Below, in pieces: positions 13,192-20,012 of a stretch of 26,643 nucleotides of DNA; within the stretch, counting starts at the first letter, position 1; each line of letters starts with the position of its first letter. Under the pieces are notes generated by a model. It had not been told where the DNA came from and ran no database searches. It saw nothing but the letters and a program-made list of their open reading frames with translations. Source of the stretch: Candidatus Desantisbacteria bacterium CG1_02_38_46 (lineage in GTDB: Bacteria; Desantisbacteria; UBA1551; UBA1559). The stretch is taken from NCBI GenBank assembly GCA_001871015.1, contig MNUO01000106.1, positions 1 through 26,643 of the forward strand. Direction: 5' to 3'. Both the position numbers and the translations under genes were made by a program.

Positions 13192-13401
13192 TTAAGCAGC
13201 TGCTGTTGCTGTTAAACCAACAGCCTCAGCATACTTCAGGAATGTTTCGACTGATGCGACTACGACTCTTGCCTCAATCGCGAGTATTTCAATACCCACT
13301 AAAGAGACTCTTACCCAGGCATCAACTACAACACCCTTGTCCAGGATTCGGTCAATAACCTCAACCAAACTGGAAGAACCAATCGCTTTTTCTACTGCCA
13401 T
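13192..13401 (-). CDS. gvpA: GvpA, major gas vesicle shell protein
   Basis: This 69-residue protein is a textbook Gvp[22 protein letters not shown], then [20 protein letters not shown] and [14 protein letters not shown]. The family is among the most conserved known; both amphipathic beta-strands and flanking helices are intact, and the length is normal. GvpA polymerises as ribs into the gas-permeable, water-excluding shell. A strong AAAGGAGGTG site lies 8 nt before the ATG. It is the first gene of the cluster and lies downstream of a predicted sigma-54 promoter. It is the only complete gvpA-type gene seen here; the other GvpA-family domain is in the fusion at the left edge. The leader contains an expanded palindromic repeat. 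Confidence 0.98.
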
Positions 13402-13421
13402 TTTAATTCACCTCCTTTTTT

Positions 13422-13520
13422 TGTAGTGGTCGAGATTGCTCGACTTATTTGCAGAGTAAACTCTGCCACTACCACCAGAGTAAACTCTGCCACTACCACC
13501 AGAGTAAACTCTGCCACTAC
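13422..13520. repeat. Paired-hairpin element (BIME/REP-like), copy 3, with a 24-bp tandem expansion
   Basis: The left half matches copy 2: TGTAGTGG (13422-13429), hairpin TCGAG/CTCGA (13430-13443), then GCAGAGT/ACTCTGC (13451-13466) and CACTAC. It is followed by two exact 24-bp units (13473-13496 and 13497-13520), each beginning CACCAGAGTAAACTCTGC and ending CACTAC. The right-hand hairpin therefore occurs three times. The array starts about 20 bp before the gvpA ATG and fills most of the predicted gvpA leader. Confidence 0.92.
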
Positions 13521-13538
13521 TTCTTTAACATATCTTAA

Positions 13539-13555
13539 TGCAACTTCTATGCCAA
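13539..13555 (-). promoter_or_regulatory. Sigma-54 (-24/-12) promoter of gvpA
   Basis: On the minus strand the sequence reads TTGGCATAGAAGTTGCA. The invariant GG (13553-13552) and GC (13541-13540) are separated by exactly 10 nt, and the flanks TTGGCA and TTGCA match the sigma-54 consensus well. The predicted transcript start is near 13528, giving a leader of about 127 nt before gvpA. An NtrC-family activator gene is about 1 kb upstream. Confidence 0.85.
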
Positions 13556-13570
13556 CTTTCCCCTTTAAAT

Positions 13571-13600
13571 AAAAAAACCACCTCAATTTTCTTGAGATGG
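13571..13600 (-). terminator. Rho-independent terminator upstream of the gvpA promoter
   Basis: On the minus strand CCATCTCAA (13600-13592) pairs with TTGAGGTGG (13586-13578), with one G-U pair in RNA, around a GAAAA loop. It is followed at once by seven T (13577-13571). It would end transcripts from the toxin-antitoxin and regulator genes about 16 nt before the -24 element, insulating gvpA. Confidence 0.85.
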
Positions 13601-13708
13601 CTTAAGTTACAATCACTCACTTACACCAAAATTATTTTTATTTTCCGGAATTTGGAAAGTTTATCCTTCTTCTATCGTTTTTGGTCTGGTATTTTCTAAC
13701 AAAAACTA

Positions 13709-13742
13709 TGGAATTATTTCCACACCTCTGGAATTACTTCCA
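13709..13742. promoter_or_regulatory. Two 14-bp dyads, candidate activator (UAS) sites for gvpA
   Basis: TGGAATTATTTCCA (13709-13722) and TGGAATTACTTCCA (13729-13742) differ at one base. Each has 5-bp arms TGGAA/TTCCA. They are exactly 20 bp apart, about two helical turns, so both face the same side. Their centres lie about 188 and 208 bp upstream of the predicted gvpA start, the usual distance for NtrC-type enhancers. A weaker related sequence (TTTCC..GGAAA) lies near 13642-13658. Binding is inferred. Confidence 0.7.
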
Positions 13743-13811: not shown

Positions 13812-14168
13812 TTATCTCCTTATTCGATATTTTCCTTCTTCAATAATAATAATTGCTCCCTTTATTTTTTCTTCAGTAATTTCTTGAAAAAATTCTCTTA
13901 TTACTTCATTTATTTCCTCAACACAACGCTCCATAGGTAACCTCAAAATTATGATTCCCCCATGAGTTCCTGGAGGATATTTTAAAATATTAGCAAAGTC
14001 CATGTCCCTGGTAATAAAGATTCTTTCTTCGCTCTGAGCAAAGGCAAATATTCTTTTGTCTTCTTCTCCTCTTAAATTTGTATCCTTTACATCTCTTACA
14101 TCGTGTTCTAATTCGTTCAGGACAAATTTGGTAGAATAAGGAAGATTTTCATCAATTAAAATTTTCAT
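13812..14168 (-). CDS. DUF5615 PIN-like protein, probable toxin
   Basis: This 118-residue protein has the PIN-like pattern of the DUF5615 family: KILIDENLPYS at the start, HDVRDVKDTNLRGEEDKRIFAFA, then IFITRDMDFANILKYPPGTHGGIIILRLP. The acidic residues D7/E8, D35-E36 and D54/D56 would form the metal site of a PIN-type nuclease. A C-terminal helix and a basic end follow. DUF5615 genes usually pair with DUF433 genes, as here, where the ATG overlaps the partner's stop by 4 nt. The pair is taken to be a toxin-antitoxin system, though few have been tested and RNA cleavage is inferred. It lies between the regulators and gvpA and is unrelated to vesicles by family. Confidence 0.85.
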   Translation of the reverse strand: MKILIDENLPYSTKFVLNELEHDVRDVKDTNLRGEEDKRIFAFAQSEERIFITRDMDFANILKYPPGTHGGIIILRLPMERCVEEINEVIREFFQEITEEKIKGAIIIIEEGKYRIRR

Positions 14169-14392
14169 CTCGCTTTTAAAGAAAAAACTTCTTCTTTCTC
14201 AATGGATTCCGCGGCATATTCCATGGCAGCTAAAATATCTTCTCTATTTATTCTGTACTCTTTCTCAATTTCTTCAAAAGTCATTCCACCAACTAAAGAA
14301 CCAAGAATCAATTGAACTGGTATCCTTGTTCCTTTTATCACAGGTTTCCCATGAAGAATCTGTTCATCAATTGTTATCCTTTCTTCAAACAT
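14165..14392 (-). CDS. DUF433 protein, probable antitoxin
   Basis: The ATG at 14390-14392 (MFEERITID) follows an AGGAGGT site 5 nt upstream and is preferred over the in-frame start 27 nt earlier. The 75-residue product has the DUF433 signature: HGKPVIKGTRIPVQLILGSLVGGMTFEEIEKEY, a winged helix-turn-helix-like fold, then a helix NREDILAAMEYAAE. DUF433 proteins are proposed antitoxins for DUF5615 PIN-like toxins and may bind their own promoter. The coupling to the next gene (ATGA overlap) and a strong promoter upstream fit that model. Confidence 0.88.
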   Translation of the reverse strand: MFEERITIDEQILHGKPVIKGTRIPVQLILGSLVGGMTFEEIEKEYRINREDILAAMEYAAESIEKEEVFSLKAR

Positions 14393-14433
14393 CGTTACCT
14401 CCTGTATTGTTTCCCACATCTGGTGTATTACAT

Positions 14434-14482: not shown

Positions 14483-15913
14483 TCAATCTTTCAGTTGGGC
14501 ATGGATATTATATTTCTTTATTTTATTATATAAAGTTTTGTAGTCTATTTTTAAGAGGCGGGCTGCCTTACTTTTGTTTCCATTTACTTCTTTTAATACC
14601 CTAAGAATTGCTTGCTTTTCTACTTCTTTTTTTGCTGTTTTTCCTATTTCTTTAAGAGAACCTTGAGCAATGTCTTTTTTTTCTTGAGATTCTTCATCAG
14701 GAACTACTTTACTGGATAGAACTCTCTCAGAGAAAACTTCATCTAATTGTATTTCCTGGGGAAAGTTTTCTGGAAGGATATATTTTTTAGCTAAGAGAAC
14801 TGAACTTCTCATTACATTTTTTAATTCCCGCACATTGCCTGGCCAGGAATATCTCATCAATAAAGCCATTGCCTCTGGAGAGATTTCTTTAACTTTCTTA
14901 TTAAATTCCTTATTGAATTCATTTAGGAAAAGTCGGGCTAACAGCAAAACATCTTCTTCTCTTTCCCTTAAAGGAGGAAGTACAATAGAAAACTCTTTCA
15001 AACGATAGTAAAGGTCTTCGCGGAAAACTCTCTTTTTGATTAATTCTTCTAAATTGGTATTGGTAGCAGTGACAATCCGCACATCTATTTTTATCGGTTT
15101 ATTACTGCCGAGACGCACAATTTCTCTTTCCTGTAGCATTCTGAGCAACTTCTTCTGGGTATCTAAACTTAAATTTCCAACTTCATCGAGAAATAGGGTT
15201 CCTTCATTTGCTAATTCGCATTTGCCCAATTTTCTTGATATTGCCCCTGTAAAAGCACCCTTCTCATAACCAAATATTTCACTTTCTACAAGAGTCTCGG
15301 GCAGAGTGGCGCAATCCACAGTTATAAAAGGTTTATCCTTTCTTAAGGAATTATAATGAATAATTCTTGCAGCAAGTTCTTTACCGGTTCCACTTTCTCC
15401 TCGCAGCAAAACAGAAACATCAGTAGAAATTGCCTTTTCCAGAAGAGCATAAAGTTTTTGCATTGCAGCGCTCTCTCCATCGAGAGAAGCAAATTTAAAT
15501 CTTTCTTTCAATTCTTCTTTCAGTCTAAAAACCTCCTGGGTTAAATCTAAGGTCTTAAGTGCATTTTTAATGATTATCTTTAGTTTTTCATTATCAATAG
15601 GCTTGCTCAGGTAATCATATGCACCCATTTTCATGGATTTCACTGCAGTCTGCACTGTCTCATAAGCAGTCAACATAATCACCAATAACTCCACATTAAT
15701 TTCTTTTATTCTACGTAGTGTCTCCAGTCCATCCATTCCAGGCATTTTTATATCGAGAATCACCAGGTCAGGAGATTCATTCTCAATTTTTTTCAAACCC
15801 GCTGGTCCATCAGTAGCCGTGAGCACCTGATAGCCTTCTTCACTCAAGACTTTGGAAAAAATCCAGCCCTGTTCTGGTTCATCATCAATAACCAAAATTT
15901 TCTTTTCGTCCAT
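14483..15913 (-). CDS. NtrC-family sigma-54 response regulator, probable gvp activator
   Basis: This 476-residue protein has a receiver domain (1-120) with phospho-acceptor D54 (VILDIKMPG) and K104. The AAA+ sigma-54 activation domain (about 143-375) has Walker A GESGTGKE (172-179), the sigma-54-contacting loop GAFTGA (219-224) and Walker B LFLDEVG (240-246). A Fis-type helix-turn-helix ends it (NGNKSKAARLLKIDYKTLYNKI). All key residues are intact, so it should activate sigma-54 promoters when phosphorylated. A sigma-54 promoter with paired upstream dyads lies before gvpA, and Serratia gas vesicles are also governed by an NtrC-type regulator (GvrA), so gvpA is the likely target. The gene follows a receiver protein and histidine kinase with 1-2 nt gaps, forming one operon. 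Confidence 0.93.
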   Translation of the reverse strand: MDEKKILVIDDEPEQGWIFSKVLSEEGYQVLTATDGPAGLKKIENESPDLVILDIKMPGMDGLETLRRIKEINVELLVIMLTAYETVQTAVKSMKMGAYDYLSKPIDNEKLKIIIKNALKTLDLTQEVFRLKEELKERFKFASLDGESAAMQKLYALLEKAISTDVSVLLRGESGTGKELAARIIHYNSLRKDKPFITVDCATLPETLVESEIFGYEKGAFTGAISRKLGKCELANEGTLFLDEVGNLSLDTQKKLLRMLQEREIVRLGSNKPIKIDVRIVTATNTNLEELIKKRVFREDLYYRLKEFSIVLPPLREREEDVLLLARLFLNEFNKEFNKKVKEISPEAMALLMRYSWPGNVRELKNVMRSSVLLAKKYILPENFPQEIQLDEVFSERVLSSKVVPDEESQEKKDIAQGSLKEIGKTAKKEVEKQAILRVLKEVNGNKSKAARLLKIDYKTLYNKIKKYNIHAQLKD

Positions 15914-15914
15914 T

Positions 15915-16535
15915 TTAAAACCTTTTTGAACTTTCCCTTATCGCCCGCAATATCTCTTTTATGGTAAAGGGCTTATCAAGAAAATAGGAAGCTCCTTTAT
16001 TTCTTGCCTCCTTGCGCAAATCTGGTGTTCCATAAGCAGTAATTATGCATACGGCAATTTTTGGGTTGATTTTTTTAATCCTGTGCAGGACTTTTGTACC
16101 ATCAGTATCAGGTAATTTCAAATCTAAAAATACCAAATCTGGAATTTCCTTTTTTACCTGAGCAATTCCTTCTTTTCCAGTGCTGGCAGTGGTTACCTTA
16201 TACCTTCTCTTGCACAATGCCTCAGAGAGCAGCCAGCACATATCTTTTTCATCATCAACAATAAGAATCTTTTTTATCTTTTTTCGTGGAATTAAAACCT
16301 TTCTTTCTTTTTTTAGTTCTCTTAGCTGTTTTTTCTTATACTCTTCAAAAAAAGGTATTAATTCTTCAAGTTCTTCAGGCTTGCGCCAGCCAGAGAATCC
16401 ACTGCGCCAGACAAAAACATCCCCTTCTTTTATTATACCATTTATAATCCAGTTGCACAACCGAGAAGTATAAATTGTTCGATAAATACCTGCTCCTTTT
16501 TTTATATCCCATTTTATCTCTTTAAAAGTTCTCAT
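15915..16535 (-). CDS. Response regulator with an N-terminal GYF-like domain
   Basis: Residues about 15-65 (IYTSRLCNWIINGIIKEGDV followed by VWRSGFSGWRKPEELEEL) resemble the GYF_2/DUF4339 fold, usually a protein-binding module. Residues 88-206 form a receiver domain with D138 (VFLDLKLP), acidic D94-D95 and K188 (LDKPF). No DNA-binding or enzyme output domain is present, so it probably works by phosphorelay or protein contact. It lies between the PAS kinase (stop adjacent to its ATG, with GGGAGG as ribosome-binding site) and the NtrC-type regulator (1-nt gap), so the three are co-expressed. The GYF-like match is by pattern and less certain than the receiver. Confidence 0.85.
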   Translation of the reverse strand: MRTFKEIKWDIKKGAGIYRTIYTSRLCNWIINGIIKEGDVFVWRSGFSGWRKPEELEELIPFFEEYKKKQLRELKKERKVLIPRKKIKKILIVDDEKDMCWLLSEALCKRRYKVTTASTGKEGIAQVKKEIPDLVFLDLKLPDTDGTKVLHRIKKINPKIAVCIITAYGTPDLRKEARNKGASYFLDKPFTIKEILRAIRESSKRF

Positions 16536-17648
16536 TTACCCTCCCACTATCTCGCCAAGTTTCACTTTCTTAATCGGCAGACTCACAGAAAAAGTTGCTC
16601 CTTTTCCTTTTTTGCTCTCTATATCTATAAGTCCACCATGGCTTCCGATAATTCCATAAACTACTGATAATCCTAAACCCATTCCACCTTCTTTTTCTCT
16701 GGTGGTGAAAAAAGGGTCAAATATTCTGATAATATCTTCTTCAGGAATACCCACGCCATTATCGCTAAACTTAATCACAACAGCATCTCCTTCAAATCTG
16801 GTTTCAATTTTCAATTCACCCCTATCAGGCATAGCCTGCAAGGCATTGAGCACAATATTTAAAAATGCCTGTCTCATATGCTGCTCATCAATTTTTATTT
16901 TTGGTAATTTAGGAGTAAAATTTTTAATCACCTTTACTTTCTGCTTCTGGCATCTGTCTCTAATGAAAGTGAGCACATTATTCAAAACTTTATGTATATC
17001 GCAAGGACGCATTTTGAGCATCGGGGGCCTGGCACAATTTACAAATTCAGTAATGAGATAGTTTAGTTTATCTATATTCTTATTAACCGCTAAGAGATAT
17101 TTTCTCCTCGGGTCGTCCTTTTTAAGTTCCTCCTGAAGGCGCTGAATTGACATACTCACCACATTTAGAGGATTTCTTATTTCATGGGCTACACTTGCAG
17201 CCATTCTTCCTGCAAATGCCAATTTCTCTGAACGAACTAATTGGTCCTTACTTTCTTCTAACTCCTTATATGAAGTTTCAAGTTCGTCCTTTGCTCTGGT
17301 CAATTCCTCTATAATATGTTTCATTTCACCAATGTCTCTCGCTACATAAATTATTTTTTTAGTATTTCCTGTATCATCTCTTTTTACTGATATACTAAGA
17401 TTGACCGGGATTTCTTCCCCGTTTTTCTTTAAATAAATAGCCTCACAGTTTCGCAGGAGAGTTTTTTCTGCAAATTCCTTTTGTGGAAAATTCCTGCATA
17501 TTAAATTGAATGGTTTTCCCACAAGTTCTTCCTTTTTAAATCCTAAAAGTTCGAGGGTTGCGGGGTTCACTTCTTCTATCTTACTTTCTGCATCCAGAAG
17601 GATTATACTATCCGGTATATCCTGTATAACTTCTTTAAGTTCTTCCAT
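16536..17648 (-). CDS. PAS-domain sensor histidine kinase
   Basis: This 370-residue protein has an N-terminal PAS domain (about 1-110; IILLDAESKIEEVNPATLEL), a short coiled coil, then a HisKA domain with phospho-acceptor H155 in HEIRNPL and an HATPase domain with N-box LNIVLNALQAM, G1 DNGVGI (297-302), F-box DPFFTT and G2 GGMGLGLS. No transmembrane segment is present, so it senses a cytoplasmic signal. It has the form of an NtrB-type kinase and probably phosphorylates the NtrC-type regulator encoded two genes downstream. The upstream hybrid kinase gene ends 62 nt away. Confidence 0.92.
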   Translation of the reverse strand: MEELKEVIQDIPDSIILLDAESKIEEVNPATLELLGFKKEELVGKPFNLICRNFPQKEFAEKTLLRNCEAIYLKKNGEEIPVNLSISVKRDDTGNTKKIIYVARDIGEMKHIIEELTRAKDELETSYKELEESKDQLVRSEKLAFAGRMAASVAHEIRNPLNVVSMSIQRLQEELKKDDPRRKYLLAVNKNIDKLNYLITEFVNCARPPMLKMRPCDIHKVLNNVLTFIRDRCQKQKVKVIKNFTPKLPKIKIDEQHMRQAFLNIVLNALQAMPDRGELKIETRFEGDAVVIKFSDNGVGIPEEDIIRIFDPFFTTREKEGGMGLGLSVVYGIIGSHGGLIDIESKKGKGATFSVSLPIKKVKLGEIVGG

Positions 17649-17710: not shown

Positions 17711-19375
17711 TCATCTGCTTGCAAGGGGTAGAGAAATTGTGAAGGTTGTTCCACTCTGGCTTTGTACACTGATAGAACCTCCATGCTCATTAATAATCCG
17801 CTGGACAATAGATAATCCAAGACCGGTACCGTCTGCGCGGGTGGTAAAAAAAGGATTGAATATCTTATCAAGATTCTCCGCAAGAATACCTGGTCCAGTA
17901 TCAGCAAGAGCAATCTTCACCTCATTTTCTTCTGGTTCAAGCCAGGTTCTTACCTTCAGAACACCTCCGCCCTGCATAGCATAAAGGGCATTATTTATGA
18001 TATTTAAGAAAACTTCTTCCATGTGTTCTTCATCTATGGAAACAAGTGGTAGATTATGCTGATAGTTTTTAATTATCTTTACCTTTTGTGAAATGCATTT
18101 ACGCTTCATAAGGTTTAAGGTCTGAGTGAGAATTTTATTGATATCATAAGAACTCAGGTGTAAGGGATGTGGCCTGGCAAATTCAATTAATCTCTTGCTA
18201 ATTTTGTCTAATCTCTGGACATTATTCATCACTACATTTGTAAGTTCCCTGTAAGGATCCTCAGAAGTAAGTTTATCCTGAAGATGCTGGATAGACATTC
18301 CAATAATTGAAAGGGGATTTCTTATCTCATGGGCAACAGCAGCAGCCAATTCTCCTGCAGTAGCTAATTTTTCACTTCTTACTAATTCTTCCTGAGTTTT
18401 TTTTAATTCTTCATGGGCCTGGTCCAGCTTATTATATAAGTATGCGTTCTCAATCACTACTGAAATCTGGGTAGATAGGGCTAAAAGCATATTCTGGTCA
18501 TCCTCATTAAAGACTTCACCAGAAATTTTGTTATTTACATTGATTACGCCTGTTGTCTTACCCTTTATCTTCATGGGCACACTTAAAATGGATTTAGTAA
18601 TATATCTTTCTTCACTCTTTTTCTTAAATCTAAGGTTCTGCTCAATATCCTCAATCAAAAGTGGTTCTCCTGTCTGAGCCACCCATCCAGATATACCCTC
18701 ACCAATTTTTATTCTTGTTTCCTTAATAACATTATCCTGTAAACCCTGAGCAGCCCTGATTATTAAATCGCCCTGCTTCTCATCAATCAGCATCAAGGAA
18801 CATATTTTAACTTTCATTATCCTGGTAATCATCTTCACAATTAGTTCTAACAGCAAATTCAGTTCAAAGATTGCCTCAATTGTTTTTGATGTCTCATAAA
18901 GAGCACTAATCTTCAGGTTCTTCTCCTCTATTAACTCTTCATTGACTTTTTTCAATTCCTCATTAGCCATTTGTAAATCCCCAAGCAATTGCTCTTTAGC
19001 AGCAATTAGAGATTCTCTTTCCAGGCATCTCTTTACTGTGAGCCTGATTTCTTCAATGTTAAAGGGTTTGGTAATGTAGTCATAGGCACCTTCTTTTAAA
19101 GCCTGAATAGTTGATTCTAAAGAAGGATACGCAGTGATGATAATTATGGGCAATGTAGAGTTAATCCGCCTGATGTGGTGTAGTAGTTCTATCCCGTCCA
19201 TGCCTGGCATTTTTAAATCAGTAATAATCAGGTTAAGCTTTCCCTTTTTCAATTCTCCGAGGGCAACATTTCCATCTCCTGTGCCGAGACAGTCATATCC
19301 TTCTGCCTCAAGAAGTTCGCACAGACCTTCCCGTGTATCTTTCTCGTCCTCAACAATAAGAATTTTCTCTTTCAT
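17711..19375 (-). CDS. Receiver-GAF-histidine kinase hybrid
   Basis: I start at the ATG at 19373-19375 (MKEKILIVEDEKD), where the receiver fold begins; the upstream in-frame codons run into the preceding gene. The 554-residue protein has a receiver (1-120, D53 in ITDLKMPG, K103), a coiled coil (125-155), a GAF domain (about 165-312), then HisKA with H349 (HEIRNPL) and HATPase with G1 DTGPGI and G2 GTGLGLS. Its kinase half closely resembles the PAS kinase downstream (LVRSEKLA, IRNPL, HPLHLSS), suggesting duplication. An input receiver lets it be tuned by another kinase. It is soluble and may form a phosphorelay with the neighbouring kinase, receiver and NtrC-type proteins. Confidence 0.9.
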   Translation of the reverse strand: MKEKILIVEDEKDTREGLCELLEAEGYDCLGTGDGNVALGELKKGKLNLIITDLKMPGMDGIELLHHIRRINSTLPIIIITAYPSLESTIQALKEGAYDYITKPFNIEEIRLTVKRCLERESLIAAKEQLLGDLQMANEELKKVNEELIEEKNLKISALYETSKTIEAIFELNLLLELIVKMITRIMKVKICSLMLIDEKQGDLIIRAAQGLQDNVIKETRIKIGEGISGWVAQTGEPLLIEDIEQNLRFKKKSEERYITKSILSVPMKIKGKTTGVINVNNKISGEVFNEDDQNMLLALSTQISVVIENAYLYNKLDQAHEELKKTQEELVRSEKLATAGELAAAVAHEIRNPLSIIGMSIQHLQDKLTSEDPYRELTNVVMNNVQRLDKISKRLIEFARPHPLHLSSYDINKILTQTLNLMKRKCISQKVKIIKNYQHNLPLVSIDEEHMEEVFLNIINNALYAMQGGGVLKVRTWLEPEENEVKIALADTGPGILAENLDKIFNPFFTTRADGTGLGLSIVQRIINEHGGSISVQSQSGTTFTISLPLASR

Positions 19376-19376
19376 T

Positions 19377-20012
19377 TTAAATCCTTGCTGGTTCATAACT
19401 TGCTTTAAATGGCAATCTATAGATAAGATATGTAACAATGATATCTCCTGGAAGTCTCTTATCTACCTCATGCTTCATACCCATAAATAAAATTCCAATT
19501 TCATCCTCACTCAGAGTCCGGTCAATTCGCCTGGCGATGTATACATCGCGCTGAAACAACAATTCTCTACTCTTTTCCTCATATTTTCTTATAGCCATTT
19601 CCTTTTCAGCTAAATTTGTAATTTTACTAATATTCTGCATATATTTGTATTCCTCAAGCAACAACCCGGGATTTTCTGTTCCTTCAAGTATTGCTCCTTT
19701 TGCCATTAACTCCAGGATTATTTCATAATTCTTGCTTCCTTTCTCGGCTACCTCCTGCACTATCTCTTGCTCCCTGCCACAAACAGGAAGGCCATCCTGA
19801 TATATCTTCACTTTTTTATAATTTAAGTTTAATTCATCAATTTTTTTTCTTATTCCATCCCACATATCCTGGATAATTCTGAGGTGTTCTTCCCACTTTT
19901 CCTTACTATATTTCTCTATATATTCTTTTTTTACTACTTCAGACAAAGAACCCATATCTGCTACACTGTGAACAACAGGGATATATATCAACTGTGTTCT
20001 GGTCCAATACAT
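19377..20012 (-). CDS. Conserved-looking protein of unknown function, 5' end disrupted by an IS
   Basis: I do not recognise a named family. From an ATG formed inside the IS terminal repeat the reading frame gives about 211 residues, beginning TRTQLIYIPVVHSVADMGSL. The sequence is soluble, mixed helix and strand, with a conserved-looking core KKVKIYQDGLPVCGREQEIV and a C-terminal segment EDEIGILFMGMKHEVDKRLP and LIYRLPF. It ends 1 nt before the receiver-GAF-kinase start, so it may have been co-expressed with it. The native start and promoter lie beyond, or were replaced by, the IS. Because the opening VVHSVADMGSL looks like an early part of the domain, only a few residues may be lost. It could be a sensory partner of the kinase, but this rests on position alone. 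Confidence 0.6.
   Translation of the reverse strand: MYWTRTQLIYIPVVHSVADMGSLSEVVKKEYIEKYSKEKWEEHLRIIQDMWDGIRKKIDELNLNYKKVKIYQDGLPVCGREQEIVQEVAEKGSKNYEIILELMAKGAILEGTENPGLLLEEYKYMQNISKITNLAEKEMAIRKYEEKSRELLFQRDVYIARRIDRTLSEDEIGILFMGMKHEVDKRLPGDIIVTYLIYRLPFKASYEPARI

Follow-up and report, generated by a model that had tools for sequence, protein, structure and literature searches.

Sigma-54-dependent promoters of the NtrC/glnA type are built from paired enhancer dyads, a -24/-12 promoter and an activator that reaches the promoter by looping. In the general mechanism of this activator family, a looping hexamer opens the closed sigma-54 complex by means of its GAFTGA loop.

The closest described system that governs gas vesicle formation is that of Serratia 39006, in which transcription of gvpA1 requires GvrA, a regulator of the NtrC family, and the mapped transcription start is preceded by a sigma-54 consensus (PMC4982088). 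The rpoN gene is likewise needed for gvpA1 transcription, and an rpoN mutant is without gas vesicles (PMC11778176). The portions of these two papers available to us name the sigma-54 site and give no enhancer sequence; they also describe an additional layer, quorum-sensing repression by SmaR (PMC4982088, PMC11778176). Homologues of GvrA and GvrC are reported in the Thiodictyon genome paper as well.

Here we analyse a 26,643-nucleotide stretch of DNA (the window) from Candidatus Desantisbacteria bacterium CG1_02_38_46, together with gvpA loci from other bacteria. Like the Serratia locus, the window encodes an NtrC-family regulator at the gvp locus and has a sigma-54 site at gvpA, and this combination, which we take to define control of the GvrA type, was found in the relatives too. 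Since such control is known in Serratia, its kind is not new. Judged from sequence comparison, the window very probably contains the region that controls a gas vesicle operon; RNA polymerase carrying sigma-54 would switch this operon on together with a neighbouring NtrC-type activator of the GvrA kind.

Results

Organization of the gvpA control region

The relevant features all lie on the minus strand and are listed from gvpA upstream.

13192..13401 (-), gvpA, the main gas vesicle wall protein of 69 aa (NCBIfam GvpA subfamily match, 131 bits against a cut-off of 100)
13402..13528 (-), predicted gvpA mRNA leader, structured, with three 24-nt repeats GTAGTGGCAGAGTTTACTCTGGTG at 13520-13449
13539..13555 (-), sigma-54 -24/-12 promoter TTGGCATAGAAGTTGCA (pattern match; recurs 5' of gvpA in many phyla)
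13568..13603 (-), rho-independent terminator separating the promoter from the dyads (12-pair stem-loop at 13603-13575, then a T run)
13709..13722 (-), proximal activator dyad TGGAAATAATTCCA (exact match; motif conserved in other phyla)
13729..13742 (-), distal activator dyad TGGAAGTAATTCCA (exact match; counterpart in the UBP18 locus L078)
13812..14419 (-), DUF433/DUF5615 (PIN-like) gene pair between regulator and dyads (domain search)
14483..15913 (-), NtrC-type response regulator with receiver, sigma-54 AAA and Fis HTH domains; recognition helix IDYKTL
15915..16535 (-), protein with a C-terminal receiver domain (domain search)
16536..17648 (-), PAS histidine kinase, AtoS-like (domain and NCBIfam search)
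17711..19438 (-), receiver-GAF histidine kinase (domain and NCBIfam search)

The original prediction placed a -24/-12 element with exact GG-N10-GC spacing before gvpA, and this element is present at 13555-13539, where the GG-N10-GC core of TTGGCATAGAAGTTGCA sits inside the sigma-54 promoter consensus TGGCAYR-N4-TTGCW. The strict promoter pattern TTGGCAYNNNNNTTGCW occurs four times in the 1.73 Mb assembly, and a reversed control pattern does not occur in it at all. Two TGGAA-N4-TTCCA dyads had also been placed upstream of gvpA; they are found where expected, exactly 20 bp apart from start to start and about 180-214 bp 5' of the predicted transcription start at 13528. The strict dyad pattern TGGAANNAATTCCA, with no mismatch allowed, has four occurrences in the assembly, two of which are the gvpA pair, and the 18-bp form of the distal dyad, TATGGAAGTAATTCCAGA, reaches a motif score of 10.5 of 11.2.

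Two features, the structured leader and the DUF433/DUF5615 pair, had no part in that earlier account. The three tandem 24-nt leader repeats form very stable stems (fold -48.3 kcal/mol, z -6.75), and an Rfam scan of the window and of four relatives' loci, their gvpA leaders included, returned zero matches. The DUF433/DUF5615 pair has its own sigma-70-like promoter, TTGACA-17-TATACT at 14462-14434, and is probably an inserted toxin-antitoxin-like unit.

Leaders of another kind are seen at 33 sites 5' of gvpA in Bacteroidota, Chlorobiota and Ignavibacteria, which carry a strongly conserved mRNA element, GAGGUAAnCCGUCCCUC...AAGYACGG (examples are L071, about 64 nt before gvpA, L059 and L054). This element has no Rfam match and can form a pseudoknot, GAGG pairing with CCUC and CCGU with ACGG; when covariation was examined, the pairing partners proved nearly invariant. 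Separately, a palindromic repeat, CCCCCCTGCTTTCTTGCCGA...GCAAGAAGGGGGG, follows gvpA at 13150-13098 of the window, and a similar palindromic copy stands just before another strong sigma-54 site of the same genome (L175, before position 8988 of contig C116); it looks like a dispersed repeat.

Conservation of promoter and dyads upstream of gvpA

GvpA is very conserved, so that a single scan yielded 80 loci. This promoter, with matching sites, is also found before gvpA in many unrelated bacteria that carry gas vesicle genes. The UBP18 bacterium UBA7526 (L078) has, in the same order, an NtrC-type regulator, a receiver protein, paired dyads, a terminator, TTGGCACAGAAATTGCA and gvpA. Its dyads, TGGAAGGAACTCCC and TATGGAAGATAATCCATA, are 21 bp apart, its -24/-12 element is conserved, and its regulator is 59% identical to that of the window, the HTH being masked by N in the record. 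A longer form of the dyad, TATGGAA-N4-TTCCATA, occurs singly or paired in Syntrophaceae (L027), Acidobacteria (L086) and Neomarinimicrobiota (L094).

In the first set of loci, seven finds had a motif score of at least 9.8, against 0.1 in shuffled sequences, an enrichment that is not independent because the seven include the window and other seeds. The motif was fixed as TATGGAA-N4-TTCCATA on this set before it was tested on another phylum, that of L027 (Desulfobacterota), from which 30 gvpA loci were taken, 28 of them with sufficient upstream sequence. A sigma-54 site scoring at least 8.5 was present in 24 of these 28 regions (shuffled mean 0.47). Dyads scoring at least 9.0 were found in 16 of the 28 (shuffled, 0.45) and those scoring at least 9.8 in 13 (shuffled, 0.05), the effective number of regions being slightly lower because some loci are near first-set ones (L141 resembles L027, and L146 is identical to L093). 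Among the dyad pairs of the test set, 27 of 28 had spacings of 14, 19-21 or 34-35 bp, where about 2 would be expected over all spacings up to 40 bp. The UBP18 architecture and the enrichment in Desulfobacterota show that relatives keep both the -24/-12 element and the dyads, as the original prediction demands.

These loci also bear on the notion that the dyads, which in the window lie just downstream of the DUF433/DUF5615 genes, belong to that unit or are a chance inverted repeat rather than a gvpA enhancer; this is scarcely credible, since in L078, L027, L086 and L141-L169 the same dyads, located 94-303 bp from the promoter, stand upstream of gvpA with the regulator gene or some other gene directly before them.

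The terminator was predicted to be an insulating one. Its stem-loop and T run are there, and the UBP18 locus has an equivalent, but recurrence as a general feature did not hold up: among relatives overall, terminators were seen at 5 of 33 loci against 2.4 in shuffled sequences, convincing examples being confined to the window and UBP18. Its occurrence is local.

Co-variation of operator and recognition helix

An intact, GAFTGA-bearing NtrC-type regulator had been noted nearby, and the protein encoded at 14483-15913, about 0.7 kb from the dyads, is complete in its domains by Pfam and by inspection of its sequence: a receiver with phospho-acceptor D54, an AAA domain carrying GAFTGA, and a Fis-type HTH. 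Its best NCBIfam matches (AtoC, NtrC) and those of the kinases (AtoS, ZraS) liken the system to the AtoC/ZraR-like group, although all are below their cut-offs; the window regulator differs in falling within no named equivalog and in being linked to gvp genes.

Across the loci, the HTH recognition helices of the regulators are of three main types. Loci of the DYKT type (L152 and L169 among them) mostly have the TATGGAA dyad. DRMT, DRTT and DRVT loci have TGTAG-N8-CTACA dyads, often in pairs about 21 bp apart, and in RDAL loci of Bacteroidota and Ignavibacteria (such as L055 and L071) the dyad is CGCACA-N2-TGTGCG, in most cases 146-167 bp 5' of the -24 element. One-sided rank tests, run on the stretch of 350 bp 5' of the best promoter, gave p = 9e-7 for DYKT, 3e-6 for DR.T and 3e-4 for RDAL, values that are optimistic because the sequences are related and because some of the loci tested had also served to derive the TGTAG and CGCACA motifs. 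In the regulator tree, a single supported clade unites the DR.T proteins with one RK row (L034), and several deep DYKT lineages stand beside it.

The association is not uniform. No good dyad was found upstream of the best promoter in the DYKT loci L093, L160, L179 (Methylocella) and L180 (Methylosinus), and a clear full-strength CGCACA dyad is absent from about half of the Bacteroidota loci. For Alphaproteobacteria (Methylocella, Methylosinus), an association of DYKT with the dyad was looked for and not seen.

The case for the neighbouring regulator itself as the probable reader of the dyads rests most firmly on this co-variation, which, with the conservation described above, lends good support to the proposal that this regulator controls the gas vesicle genes through them. 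The best surviving alternative, which we nevertheless regard as improbable, is that sigma-54 drives gvpA while the dyads are bound by another activator of the genome, or by several, and the neighbouring regulator serves other genes. The assembly does encode two further full-length sigma-54 activators, and the neighbouring regulator is separated from the dyads by about 0.7 kb and the inserted gene pair. The recognition helices of those two proteins are different (GRTT and NPRI), however, one of the two directly precedes a dnaK-like gene with its own sigma-54 site, and it is DYKT helices, the type found in the neighbouring regulator, that pair with TATGGAA dyads across phyla.

Sigma-54 and the distribution of its sites

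Neither two domain models nor a full-length query found RpoN in the window's own assembly, which is 88% complete. RpoN is encoded in all 12 relatives checked, an order-mate (G001) and 11 others. The relatives' RpoN, together with the genome's own activators and its sigma-54 site by the dnaK-like gene, indicates that the rpoN gene of this species most likely lies in the part missing from the assembly.

The missing RpoN also invites the reading that a housekeeping sigma factor transcribes gvpA from TTGGCA-17-TATGTT and that the sigma-54 match is a relic left after loss of rpoN. This sigma-70-like sequence, which overlaps the TTGGCATAGAAGTTGCA site, is a weak match with 9 of 12 positions. Given the incompleteness of the assembly, the RpoN of the order-mate, the three strong sigma-54 sites elsewhere in the same genome (one of them before the dnaK-like gene) and the conservation of the -24/-12 element in UBP18, we hold this to be about as improbable as binding by another activator.

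The dnaK-like gene may itself mark a second sigma-54 circuit. In the window's own genome (L172, C6:3462) it has a strong -24/-12 element and lies directly downstream of a sigma-54 activator; the same gene has a sigma-54 site in the RpoN-encoding order-mate (L171), and half-sites of the TGTTTC/GGAACA type lie upstream in both genomes.

Beyond Desulfobacterota, a sigma-54 site was seen at gvpA in 22 of 34 loci of Bacteroidota, Chlorobiota and Ignavibacteria, and in none of those of Cyanobacteria (0/6), Patescibacteria (0/4) or Actinobacteria and Chloroflexi (0/5).

Discussion

The arrangement in the window suggests the following course of events, in which control rests with sigma-54 and the adjacent regulator. 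The sensor kinases and receivers encoded upstream would phosphorylate the regulator at 14483-15913, whose Fis-type HTH, to judge from the co-variation, would bind the pair of TATGGAA-N4-TTCCATA dyads, which lie some 160-190 bp 5' of the -24/-12 element. By looping, the activator hexamer would then reach the closed complex of sigma-54 polymerase at 13555-13539 and open it by way of the GAFTGA loop. Transcription would begin near 13528 and cross the structured leader before it reaches gvpA and the other gvp genes. Read-through from the regulator and DUF433/DUF5615 genes may be halted at the terminator, in an insulating role; with this read-through stopped, gvpA would depend on its own promoter, and the looped enhancer would be unaffected.

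With NtrC/glnA-type promoters the window shares paired upstream dyads, a presumably looping receiver-AAA-Fis activator and a -24/-12 element; it differs in the sequence of its dyads, TATGGAA-N4-TTCCATA, in their spacing, mostly 19-21 bp among loci of its kind, and in being dedicated to gas vesicles. A lone gvpA on the Thiodictyon plasmid pTs485 (L177), with no other gvp genes annotated nearby, likewise has a sigma-54 site and a perfect TATGGAATGGATTCCATA dyad. A literature search conducted largely outside subscription papers yielded no paper that gives a gvpA enhancer or its spread. As far as we could find, what is new is the sequence of the enhancer, its occurrence across many phyla and the way it co-varies with the activator. 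Sigma-54 control of gvpA, for which we found experimental proof only in Serratia, is here extended to other phyla.

Taken more broadly, it seems likely that bacteria with RpoN, in about a dozen phyla, mostly switch on gvpA by means of sigma-54 and a dedicated NtrC-type activator. Activator and operator would co-evolve as a pair, with at least three specificities, and travel with the gas vesicle genes. The regulation of gas vesicles has been worked out in few organisms so far. With enhancer, matching activator and promoter now named, culturable relatives are at hand in, for example, Polaribacter filamentus, Methylosinus and Thiodictyon, and the three activator-operator pairs identified are suited to swaps. 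From the comparison it can also be predicted which carriers of gas vesicle genes should have phosphorelay control of buoyancy in common and which, cyanobacteria for instance, should stand apart.
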